A DNA stretch of 64,000 nucleotides from Sphingobacteriaceae bacterium. Lineage in GTDB: Bacteria > Bacteroidota > Bacteroidia > Sphingobacteriales > Sphingobacteriaceae. The notes below the pieces were generated by a model. The model was given only the letters and a program-made list of their open reading frames with translations. It was not told the DNA's origin and made no database searches. Shown here in pieces: positions 12,045-15,350 of this stretch. Made by a program: the position numbers and the translations under genes. Within the stretch, counting starts at the first letter, position 1; each line of letters opens with the position of its first letter. Location: contig CANHCS010000001.1 of the NCBI GenBank assembly GCA_947459195.1, positions 1-64,000 on the forward strand, in the 5' to 3' direction.

Positions 12045-13181
12045 ATGAAGGTTGCATTAATTACGGGTATTACAGGTCAGGATGGGGCATATTTGGCAGA
12101 ATTTCTGCTAAAGAAAGGTTATTTTGTTCACGGTTTAAAAAGAAGAAGTTCTTCCTTTAATACCGAACGCATAGACCATCTTTACCAAGATCCTCATGAG
12201 GAGCAAGTTCGTTTCAAGCTTCATTATGGTGATTTAACAGATTCCACCAATCTCATTCGTATTATTCAGGAAACACAACCGGATGAAATTTATAACCTGG
12301 CAGCGCAAAGCCATGTAAAAGTGAGTTTCGATACGCCTGAATACACTGCCAATGCAGATGGCGTAGGAACACTCAGAATTCTGGAAGCTGTTCGTTTGTT
12401 GGGGATGACGAAAAAAACCAAGATTTACCAGGCCTCTACTTCAGAGCTCTATGGATTGGTACAGGCGGTTCCGCAAAGCGAAACAACACCTTTCTACCCA
12501 CGTTCACCTTATGGAGTGGCCAAGTTATACGCTTACTGGATTACGGTAAACTATCGCGAAGCCTACGAGATGTATGCCTGCAACGGAATCTTATTCAATC
12601 ATGAGAGCCCCATTCGTGGCGAAACCTTCGTGACTCGTAAAATTACCCGTGCTGCGGCTAAGATTGCTCTTGGTCTGCAGCAGACGCTCTTTTTAGGTAA
12701 TTTATCTGCTCAACGAGATTGGGGCCATGCCAAAGATTATGTGGAGGCCATGTGGCTCATCTTACAACAAGAAAAGCCTGAGGATTATGTGATTGCAACC
12801 GGCGTGACCACCACAGTGAGGGACTTTGTAAAATTAGCTTTCGAAGAACTGGGTATTGAAATCGAATTCAGTGGTAAGGCCGAGAATGAAAAAGGAGTAA
12901 TTATCCATGTGAACGAAGCCCGCTGCAAGGAATTAGGGATTAACCCCGATGCGTTGAAGCTGGGCACCACGGTTGTAAAGGTCGATCCTAAATATTACCG
13001 CCCTACCGAAGTGGATCTCTTACTGGGTGATCCAAGTAAAGCAAAAAAACAATTGGGTTGGACTCCAAAGTACGATCTGCCAGCCTTGGTTCAAGATATG
13101 GTGATTGCCGATCTGCATTTAATGAAGAAAGACGAATTTTTGAAGCAGGGGGGCTATAAAACCCACAATTACTTCGAATAG
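12045..13181 (+). CDS. gmd: GDP-mannose 4,6-dehydratase
   Basis: [72 protein letters not shown]. Confidence 0.97.
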
Positions 13182-13320
13182 TTTGTTTTTTGTATAAAAT
13201 TGATTAAACCCGGCCATGCGTCGGTTTTTTTGTTATTTTATAATATAAATTACTTAATTAAAAATAATTAACTAATAATAACTAACTAAAAATAGTTATA
13301 TTTATTGTAAACTAAATCCA

Positions 13321-13388
13321 ATTGCAGCGGATACCGGCCACGAAGGGTATGCCTGCAGCCGTATGAGCGGAAAGCGGGACTCAATTAA
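13321..13388. other. GC-rich, probably structured intergenic element (possible ncRNA, repeat or bidirectional terminator)
   Basis: ATTGCAGCGGATACCGGCCACGAAGGGTATGCCTGCAGCCGTATGAGCGGAAAGCGGGACTCAATTAAA: GC-rich block in very AT-rich flanks; ATACC (13331-13335)/GGTAT (13346-13350) hairpin, CTGCAG palindrome, no ORF. Confidence 0.4.
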
Positions 13389-13421
13389 AATAGAAGTACA
13401 GTTTTGGCATTTTAAAATAGT

Positions 13422-15350
13422 TTAAGAAGCAATGGTTTGCGTAGCACGGCTATGGGCCATTTCTTTCACTTTTTGTTGAATAGCTGCCGCATCGTAACCA
13501 CATTCAGCCCATAATTCTGGCTGTTCTCCATGTTCAATTACCTGATCGGGGATACCGAGTCTGATTACCCTGGCAGTGTAATTATTTTCGGCCATGAACT
13601 CGATCACTGCAGATCCCATACCTCCCTGAATGCAACCATCTTCAACCGTAATTACGTTTTTGAATTTAGAGAACACTTCGTGGAGCAATTGTTCGTCGAT
13701 GGGTTTGGCAAAACGCATGTCGTAATGTGCCGGATAAATGCCTTCGGCATTCAATTCTTGGCAAGCTTTTGTTGCTTCGTTGCCGATGTGGCCAATACTG
13801 AGAATGGCCACCTCTTCGCCGTCACAAATTTTTCGGCCTTTACCAACAGGAATTGCTTTAAACGGACGTTTCCAGTCGGGCATCACCCCATTTCCTCTCG
13901 GATAGCGAATGGAGAAAGGTCCCATGTTTTCTTGTTGGGCAGTGTACATGAGGTTGCGTAGTTCTTCTTCGTTCATTGGGGCCGAAACCACCATGTTCGG
14001 GATACAACGCATGTAGGCCAGATCATAAGCACCGTGGTGCGTAGGTCCATCGGCTCCGGCTACCCCACCGCGATCTAAACAGAAAACCACATTGAGTTTT
14101 TGGATGGCTACATCGTGGATCACCTGATCGTAAGCACGCTGCATGAAACTGGAATAGATATTACAGAAAGGCACCATGCCCTGCGTAGCCAGTCCGGCAG
14201 AAAAAGTAACGGCATGCTGCTCGGCAATACCTACGTCGAATGCCCTTTTGGGCATGGCTTTCATCATGATATTTAACGAACAGCCGGAAGGCATGGCGGG
14301 CGTAATACCCATGATTTTATCATTTTTTTCAGCCAGTTCCACGATGGTATGTCCAAAAACATCCTGGTATTTTGGTGGTTGCGGTTTGTCAGAAACCGAT
14401 TTTTTGATTTCGCCGGTTATTTTATCGAATAAGCCGGGCGCATGCCATTTTGTTTGATCCTGCTCTGCCAAAGCGTAACCTTTACCTTTTACCGTTACGC
14501 AATGCAGCAATTTAGGACCGGGAATATTTTTCAGATCGTTGAGCACTTTTACCAGGTGTTTTACATCGTGACCGTCGATAGGTCCGAAATACCTGAAATT
14601 AAGTGCTTCGAAGAAATTGCTTTTCTTGAGGAGCGTTCCTTTGATGCTCTTCTCGATCTTCTTCACCAGCTCATGAGCGTTGGGGCCAAGGCTGGAAAGT
14701 TTATTTAAAACCAATGAAACATCATCGCGGAAGCGATTATATGTTTTAGAGGTGGTAATATCTGTGAGGTATTCTTTCAGTGCGCCCACATTTGGGTCGA
14801 TGGACATGCAATTATCATTAAGAATCACCAGCAGGTTAGAATTCTCAATACCGGCATGGTTGAGTGCCTCAAAGGCCAAACCTGCCGTCATGGCACCGTC
14901 GCCAATTACGGCCACATGCTGACGTTCAGTATTGCCCTGGTATTGCGAAGCAACGGCCATCCCCAAGGCTGCAGAAATTGAAGTAGAGGAGTGTCCCACC
15001 CCAAAAGTGTCGTATTCGCTTTCTGATCTTTTTGGGAAACCGCTGATTCCTTTATAAATACGGTTGGTGTGAAAATTTTTACGTCGCCCGGTCAGTATTT
15101 TATGACCGTAAGCCTGGTGGCCTACGTCCCATACCAATTGGTCATCGGGGGTATTAAGTACATAATGTAAAGCTACGCTGAGTTCTACTACGCCTAAACT
15201 GGCGCCAAAATGGCCACCATTCACGGAAACTACATCAATGATGTATTGACGCAATTCCTGGCAGATCTGCTCCAGCTCGCTTTCATCAAATTTTTTTAAA
15301 TCAGCGGGCAGGTTGATCCTCTCTAATAGTTCACCGGCTTTAATTTCCAT
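13422..15350 (-). CDS. dxs: 1-deoxy-D-xylulose-5-phosphate synthase
   Basis: 642-aa ORF; GGHFGASLGVVELSVALHYV, DVGHQAYGHKILTGRR, GDGAMTAGLAFEALNHAG, DRGGVAGADGPTHHGAYDL. Confidence 0.97.
   Translation of the reverse strand: MEIKAGELLERINLPADLKKFDESELEQICQELRQYIIDVVSVNGGHFGASLGVVELSVALHYVLNTPDDQLVWDVGHQAYGHKILTGRRKNFHTNRIYKGISGFPKRSESEYDTFGVGHSSTSISAALGMAVASQYQGNTERQHVAVIGDGAMTAGLAFEALNHAGIENSNLLVILNDNCMSIDPNVGALKEYLTDITTSKTYNRFRDDVSLVLNKLSSLGPNAHELVKKIEKSIKGTLLKKSNFFEALNFRYFGPIDGHDVKHLVKVLNDLKNIPGPKLLHCVTVKGKGYALAEQDQTKWHAPGLFDKITGEIKKSVSDKPQPPKYQDVFGHTIVELAEKNDKIMGITPAMPSGCSLNIMMKAMPKRAFDVGIAEQHAVTFSAGLATQGMVPFCNIYSSFMQRAYDQVIHDVAIQKLNVVFCLDRGGVAGADGPTHHGAYDLAYMRCIPNMVVSAPMNEEELRNLMYTAQQENMGPFSIRYPRGNGVMPDWKRPFKAIPVGKGRKICDGEEVAILSIGHIGNEATKACQELNAEGIYPAHYDMRFAKPIDEQLLHEVFSKFKNVITVEDGCIQGGMGSAVIEFMAENNYTARVIRLGIPDQVIEHGEQPELWAECGYDAAAIQQKVKEMAHSRATQTIAS

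Follow-up and report, generated by a model that had tools for sequence, protein, structure and literature searches.

The window, that is, the whole 64,000-nucleotide stretch of a Sphingobacteriaceae genome that was analyzed, contains a 240-bp spacer between two convergent genes. The left neighbor, on the plus strand at 12045-13181, is gmd, encoding a GDP-mannose 4,6-dehydratase-like protein, a name given by an initial annotation of this DNA and fitted by the translation. The right neighbor, on the minus strand at 13422-15350, is dxs, encoding 1-deoxy-D-xylulose-5-phosphate synthase, whose orthologues in sister species are 85-99% identical. Going from gmd, the spacer comprises a terminator-like hairpin, an A/T-rich stretch and a GC-rich block, in this order. 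The first of these, a GC hairpin followed by a T-run at about 13206-13232 (plus strand), lies outside the element described below, has a better paired sister-species homologue and, judging from its sequence, is probably the terminator of gmd. The A/T-rich stretch carries a palindrome, TAACTA-AAAA-TAGTTA (13283-13298), which all five sister species share at the corresponding position, two of them with compensatory substitutions (TACCTA/TAGGTA in G001 and G002); it is older than the insertion of the element and could serve as a repressor site or as an A/T-rich terminator. In another sister species, G005, about 816 extra bases, including an antisense reading frame, lie between gmd and the element (L070:340-1240), and a repeat of the final ~40 bases of gmd flanks them. 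A tRNA gene scan revealed no tRNA genes in the window.

The initial annotation had pointed to the GC-rich block behind the A/T-rich run between convergent ends of gmd and dxs, an arrangement that was confirmed, and the motifs that it quoted are all present: GCAGCGGATA at 13324-13333, GAGCGGAAAGCGGGACT at 13365-13381, CTGCAG at 13353-13358, ATACC at 13331-13335 and GGTAT at 13346-13350. It had also suggested an Rfam scan, with the caveat that a match would mean that the element is already described. This caveat applies: a sensitive cmscan search aligned 13310-13385 (plus strand) with Flavo-1 (RF01705) over model positions 1-76 of 76, with a score of 24.3 bits (E 0.013). Flavo-1 RNA was reported by Weinberg et al. 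(2010; PMC2864571) and has the Rfam type sRNA. The gathering cut-off of RF01705 is 42 bits, above the score of the window copy, and an ordinary Rfam scan of the window reports nothing; even the best Flavo-1 copy of the genome, at 41.5 bits, falls below it. Membership is nevertheless secure, because copies from sister species of the same genus pass the cut-off (46.7 bits in G005 and 42.8 bits in G003), and transitive homology between the sequences makes the window copy a diverged member of Flavo-1, although it fails the cut-off itself. Our own model R1 scores it at 42.8 bits, a figure that is not independent since the copy is one of the 45 training rows of R1. That the block exceeds chance is established by its end-to-end alignment together with a second genomic copy, on contig C60, which is 79% identical over 67 bp (E 3.6e-9). 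Altogether, the genome-wide search found eight Flavo-1-like places in the 1.8-Mb genome of 82 contigs, seven of them at E <= 0.01; the eighth, on the short GC-rich contig C81, is weak. A match to Atu_Ti3, lying inside dxs and below the cut-off, was dismissed as chance.

The structure was studied in an alignment, A1, of 45 related copies from several families, including the window copy. Its base pairs covary strongly: 94.4% of cells are paired, double-change cells number 105 against 29.5 in shuffles, and the covariation score is 0.512 against 0.158, while structures slid along the alignment pair at 30-43%. The shuffle control leaves the relatedness of the copies in place; even so, all four Watson-Crick types at a single pair, as at one freely covarying pair (UA 20, AU 16, GC 6, CG 2, besides GU 1), are hard to obtain without covariation. 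From outside to inside, the shared fold consists of a CCCG/CGGG stem, an A.G mismatch, a T-A pair and the freely covarying pair, then a GNA/GNA 3x3 loop, a 2-bp stem (GC/GC, GU/AC or others) and a second loop, usually also GNA/GNA, and finally a stem of 3-4 bp topped by a terminal hairpin of any sequence. Of the G.A contacts bounding the first loop, one is present in 45/45 rows and the other in 44/45; one bounding the second loop is kept in 43/45.

In the window, the 5′ arm TCCAATTGCAGCGGATAC (13317-13334) contains in order the outer stem, the GCA side of the first G.A-flanked loop, the 2-bp GC stem, the GG side of the second loop and the ATAC stem. It is followed by the variable terminal stem-loop region (13335-13360), of a subclass, ACCGGCC...GCCTG, common to the window, the C60 copy, the sister species and genome G006, and by the partner 3′ arm GTATGAGCGGAAAGCGGGA (13361-13379). 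The conserved inner stem thus joins ATAC at 13331-13334 with GTAT at 13361-13364. The hairpin that the initial annotation had drawn between ATACC and the nearer GGTAT is not a conserved pairing but a local one, as GGTAT is missing from both the orthologue in the sister species and the C60 copy. In addition, position 13320 is an A, which disrupts an otherwise almost invariant G-C pair (13320/13375), and the window strand folds no better than chance (z -0.6 against shuffles, compared with -3.3 for the orthologue).

The Rfam model does not cover the whole unit. A box, CTTTTCAAA, is found with at most one mismatch 20-24 nt past the core in 20/50 Sphingobacteriaceae copies, against a control rate of 1.5%, and at the same offset (22 nt) the window has CATTTTAAA (13408-13416), with two mismatches to this consensus end box. 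These sequences indicate that the Sphingobacteriaceae unit extends into a 3′ tail, of which the window keeps a relic at 13386-13417 (plus strand); the block as annotated is real, but the unit is longer than the extent given to it, the relic running to about 13417. Flavobacterium copies have short or long 3′ tails, and 15/61 have a weaker 5′ box, TTTTGAAAA, compared with 5.5% in the control. Many G006 copies are paired head to head at a distance of 59-93 bp and bordered by TTTGAAAAGCAA...TTGCTTTTCAAA as terminal inverted repeats, which makes palindromic units of ~300 bp (L048-L055; for example, L048:8884-9145 and L054:2168-2388). An inverted doublet occurs once in G017, and none is present at the window copy.

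The supposition that the block belongs to a dispersed structured element common to other Bacteroidota was borne out, homologues with the covarying structure being present in the genome, in sister species and in further families. Copy number is very uneven: from 0 to at least 62 in genomes of the same family, 107 in one Flavobacterium genome and zero in many relatives. Matches were found in 60/393 Bacteroidota genomes, in a survey that scored 11 candidates per genome, so that its counts are lower bounds. At the gmd-dxs site, the copy is present in the genome studied here (G000) and in G005, and the site is empty in G001, G002, G003 and G004. Three other sites, atpH-atpA among them, carry the element in G000, G005 and G003 but not in G001 and G004, and at a further site it occurs in G000 and G005 alone. 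The pattern is one of gains in one branch of the genus. The species pairs are too diverged for a target-site duplication to be read at these empty sites, and most insertion junctions from an automatic empty-site search are likewise too diverged. Copies are also lost at fixed sites. A copy follows nuoH in 42/80 Flavobacterium nuoH-nuoI loci, always in sense and often with an intact structure, which is most simply explained by one old insertion. Several nuo loci without a copy have a neat gap between GTAAT and AGCTTC, with the flanking boxes kept, a pattern suggestive of loss across the hairpin base.

As for the window copy, it is 82% identical to its orthologue and the flank is 79% identical; by this comparison no constraint is visible on it. 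Since it changes at the pace of its surroundings and no longer folds better than chance, it probably has no role at this location. Some other sites behave differently. At the L016 site, orthologous hairpins compensate (GCGCC/GGCGC versus TGCCGCC/GGCGGCA), a change that could be due to selection, to concerted evolution or to template-switch correction of imperfect palindromes. Together with the retention at 42/80 nuoH-nuoI loci, it hints that, at some sites, selection or concerted evolution acted on copies once they had inserted. Three Flavobacterium genomes share an orthologous site (L128:6161-6248, L093:1501-1586 and L191:3001-3078) at which the copies are of differing subclasses, GAAAATCC versus GGTATCC, with GT/AC versus CC/GG, which suggests replacement or concerted evolution of resident copies.

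Is Flavo-1 an RNA gene, a terminator or a repeat, the three options of the initial annotation? Orientation bears directly on this question. The 61 copies of G363, with genes called by a simple longest-ORF rule, comprise 23 tandem-sense, 16 tandem-antisense, 13 convergent and 6 divergent ones and 3 overlapping a called ORF. Sense copies are not significantly more common than antisense ones (23 versus 16, p 0.34), nor more intact (median 60.5 versus 58.6 bits, p 0.38). There is a slight depletion between divergent genes (context versus background gaps, p 0.08-0.12), which could result from selection or from target choice. In the same genome, each of three rRNA operons has a Flavo-1 copy upstream of 16S (L167:14077, L177:3001 and L196:3001), and the sequence common to the operons stops at the element; a multi-copy 138-aa "gene" beside copies of this genome proved to be a spurious ORF upstream of 16S rRNA.

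According to the Rfam entry (Gene; sRNA), Flavo-1 would be an sRNA or a structured RNA within transcripts, and the window copy a diverged RNA gene. The strong covariation and the strand-specific structure are in keeping with this, and G-U exceeds A-C among the non-Watson-Crick cells (24 versus 5; pairs 0-9, alignments A2-A4), although models scored as RNA lean that way. These 24 G-U cells are, however, out of about 1790 (ten pairs, three alignments), a level rare for an RNA family. The freedom of orientation and the equal intactness are better arguments for DNA than the G-U versus A-C counts, which point both ways. With antisense copies matching sense ones in frequency and intactness, the ncRNA reading loses ground; the neutral evolution of the window copy also speaks against it. 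In the published transcriptome of F. psychrophilum, some copies overlap structured 5′ regions, but matches occur on either strand relative to transcripts, and many of them are not transcribed (PMC9723704). On balance, we regard an RNA gene as unlikely.

An intrinsic or bidirectional terminator serving gmd and dxs would suit the position between convergent 3′ ends and the hairpin potential of the block, and many copies elsewhere lie close after stop codons. It is unsupported, because gmd has its own terminator-like hairpin upstream and copies occur inside operons, sense ones being found within both nuo and atp (nuoH-nuoI and atpH-atpA). Moreover, by eye the 3′ arm is followed by CTCAATTAAAATAG and no T-run, and the spacer is without the element in four of the five sister species; a terminator is the least probable of all the readings considered. 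A repeat fits best among the three options. Retention as a functional DNA site of a chromosome-structuring or replication-linked protein would agree with the free orientation relative to genes and with the long retention at some sites. It is scarcely likely, in view of the zero copies in many relatives and of the lack of replichore polarity of the copy strand in three of four genomes, the fourth being marginal (p 0.05, post hoc).

If Flavo-1 is a mobile repeat, what moves it? No mobilizing protein was found among RAYT proteins, ORF6N proteins and genes enclosed by paired copies. REP/REPIN elements are moved by RAYT, a Y1 transposase (PF01797), and the dispersed intergenic hairpins and head-to-head doublets of G006 recall them. 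Copy numbers of Flavo-1 are, however, unrelated to PF01797 matches: there are none in the genus of the window genome or in G027, which has at least 29 Flavo-1 copies, while G018 has eight matches and one copy, and no RAYT gene adjoins a copy in the stretches inspected. In the form tested, this reading is largely refuted, and we give it very little weight. Paired copies enclose only ordinary genes rather than a transposase, and no related autonomous transposon is present in the stretches inspected.

The other candidate is the ORF6N protein (PF10543), whose gene might form an autonomous unit with Flavo-1. An ORF6N gene lies directly upstream of the copy in the nuoH-nuoI spacer at about ten Flavobacterium loci, with the same order once in G017, and of 30 ORF6N loci of the genus Flavobacterium, four are followed by a sense copy of Flavo-1, the nuo site being once more one of the four. 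The remaining 26/30 are without a recognized neighbor, and ORF6N is absent from some Flavo-1-bearing genomes (the genus of the window genome, G006, G015 and G027). It was therefore set aside as mostly unlinked and, where present, having palindromes of its own, and such a partnership seems highly improbable, if slightly less so than RAYT. In several Flavobacterium species, the ORF6N protein inserted in the nuo operon upstream of Flavo-1 is of ~173 aa (L227, L234, L240, L243 and L262); its gene is broken in L237 and reduced to remnants in L273 and L260. Flavobacterium ORF6N genes at L309, L311, L317, L318, L319 and L325 are trailed by their own palindromes (AAGGTCGCAAATTGCGACCTT and GGTCACAAATTGTGACC), and similar palindromes lie within the nuo-site ORF6N genes; these are possibly self-recognition sites.

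The explanation that we favor, and consider probable, is that the window block is a diverged and decaying copy of Flavo-1 and that the family is a dispersed intergenic repeat, presumably of mobile DNA. The family is a Bacteroidota repeat with a covarying fold-back; relatives have empty sites, copies have been lost at fixed sites, and neither orientation is preferred with respect to transcription. Flavo-1 would spread as mobile DNA: one strand, when the DNA is single-stranded, would fold into the short helices, the two G.A-flanked internal loops and the freely varying terminal hairpin, and a putative protein would recognize this fold and copy or move the element, by analogy with REP/REPIN or attC sites. 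Once inserted, copies would be passed on vertically, decay or disappear, the last probably when replication slips across the base of the hairpin. Insertion into the gmd-dxs spacer would date from the common ancestor of G000 and G005, and the window copy now has no detectable function there. This mobile-DNA reading of the family is new and plausible but lacks its enzyme; the failure to find a mobilizer counts against it, as does the absence of Flavo-1 from plasmid and phage records and, with one strict pattern, from viral contigs; the hints of selection or concerted evolution at some sites weigh on the same side. More tentatively, and with rather less than even confidence, we propose that Flavo-1 has been misfiled as RNA and is a class of mobile DNA that serves, as a folded single strand with two G.A-bounded loops and an exchangeable hairpin, as the substrate of the putative mobilizer, and that in Sphingobacteriaceae includes palindromic doublets with terminal inverted repeats.

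An orphan since 2010, Flavo-1 is listed with the most abundant families of predicted sRNAs (PMC9029176). The window copy in itself is unremarkable and its family already known. A demonstration of insertion either way, sites within essential operons, absence in sister species and neutral decay would shift the search from RNA targets to a mobilizing protein, and it cautions against annotating every copy as an RNA gene. Compared with known systems, the element agrees with Flavo-1 of RF01705 in its full-length alignment, arms, nested short helices, two internal loops, variable terminal hairpin and distribution in Bacteroidota, whereas the window copy falls below the cut-off, the actual unit includes a 3′ tail that the Rfam model leaves out, and the evidence speaks more for a repeat of mobile DNA than for the RNA gene assumed by the entry. 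With MITEs, the non-autonomous derivatives of IS elements, it shares its non-coding and dispersed nature, empty sites and, in the G006 doublets, terminal inverted repeats; unlike MITEs, most copies have no convincing second terminal repeat, and no autonomous relative appeared in the stretches inspected. The likeness to integron attC sites is one of analogy only, in the conserved imperfect stem, the unpaired features, the variable terminal structure and the reading on one strand; Flavo-1 has no attC core boxes or cassette arrays, and no linkage to an integrase was seen. REP/REPIN elements (BIMEs) are likewise short dispersed intergenic fold-backs, with inverted doublets as in one Flavo-1-bearing genome, and Flavo-1 behaves like a fold that is recognized on one strand. 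They differ in that Flavo-1 shows no correlation with RAYT, that most of its copies, including that of the window, are single, and that REP elements lack its conserved non-Watson-Crick loops and its variable hairpin.
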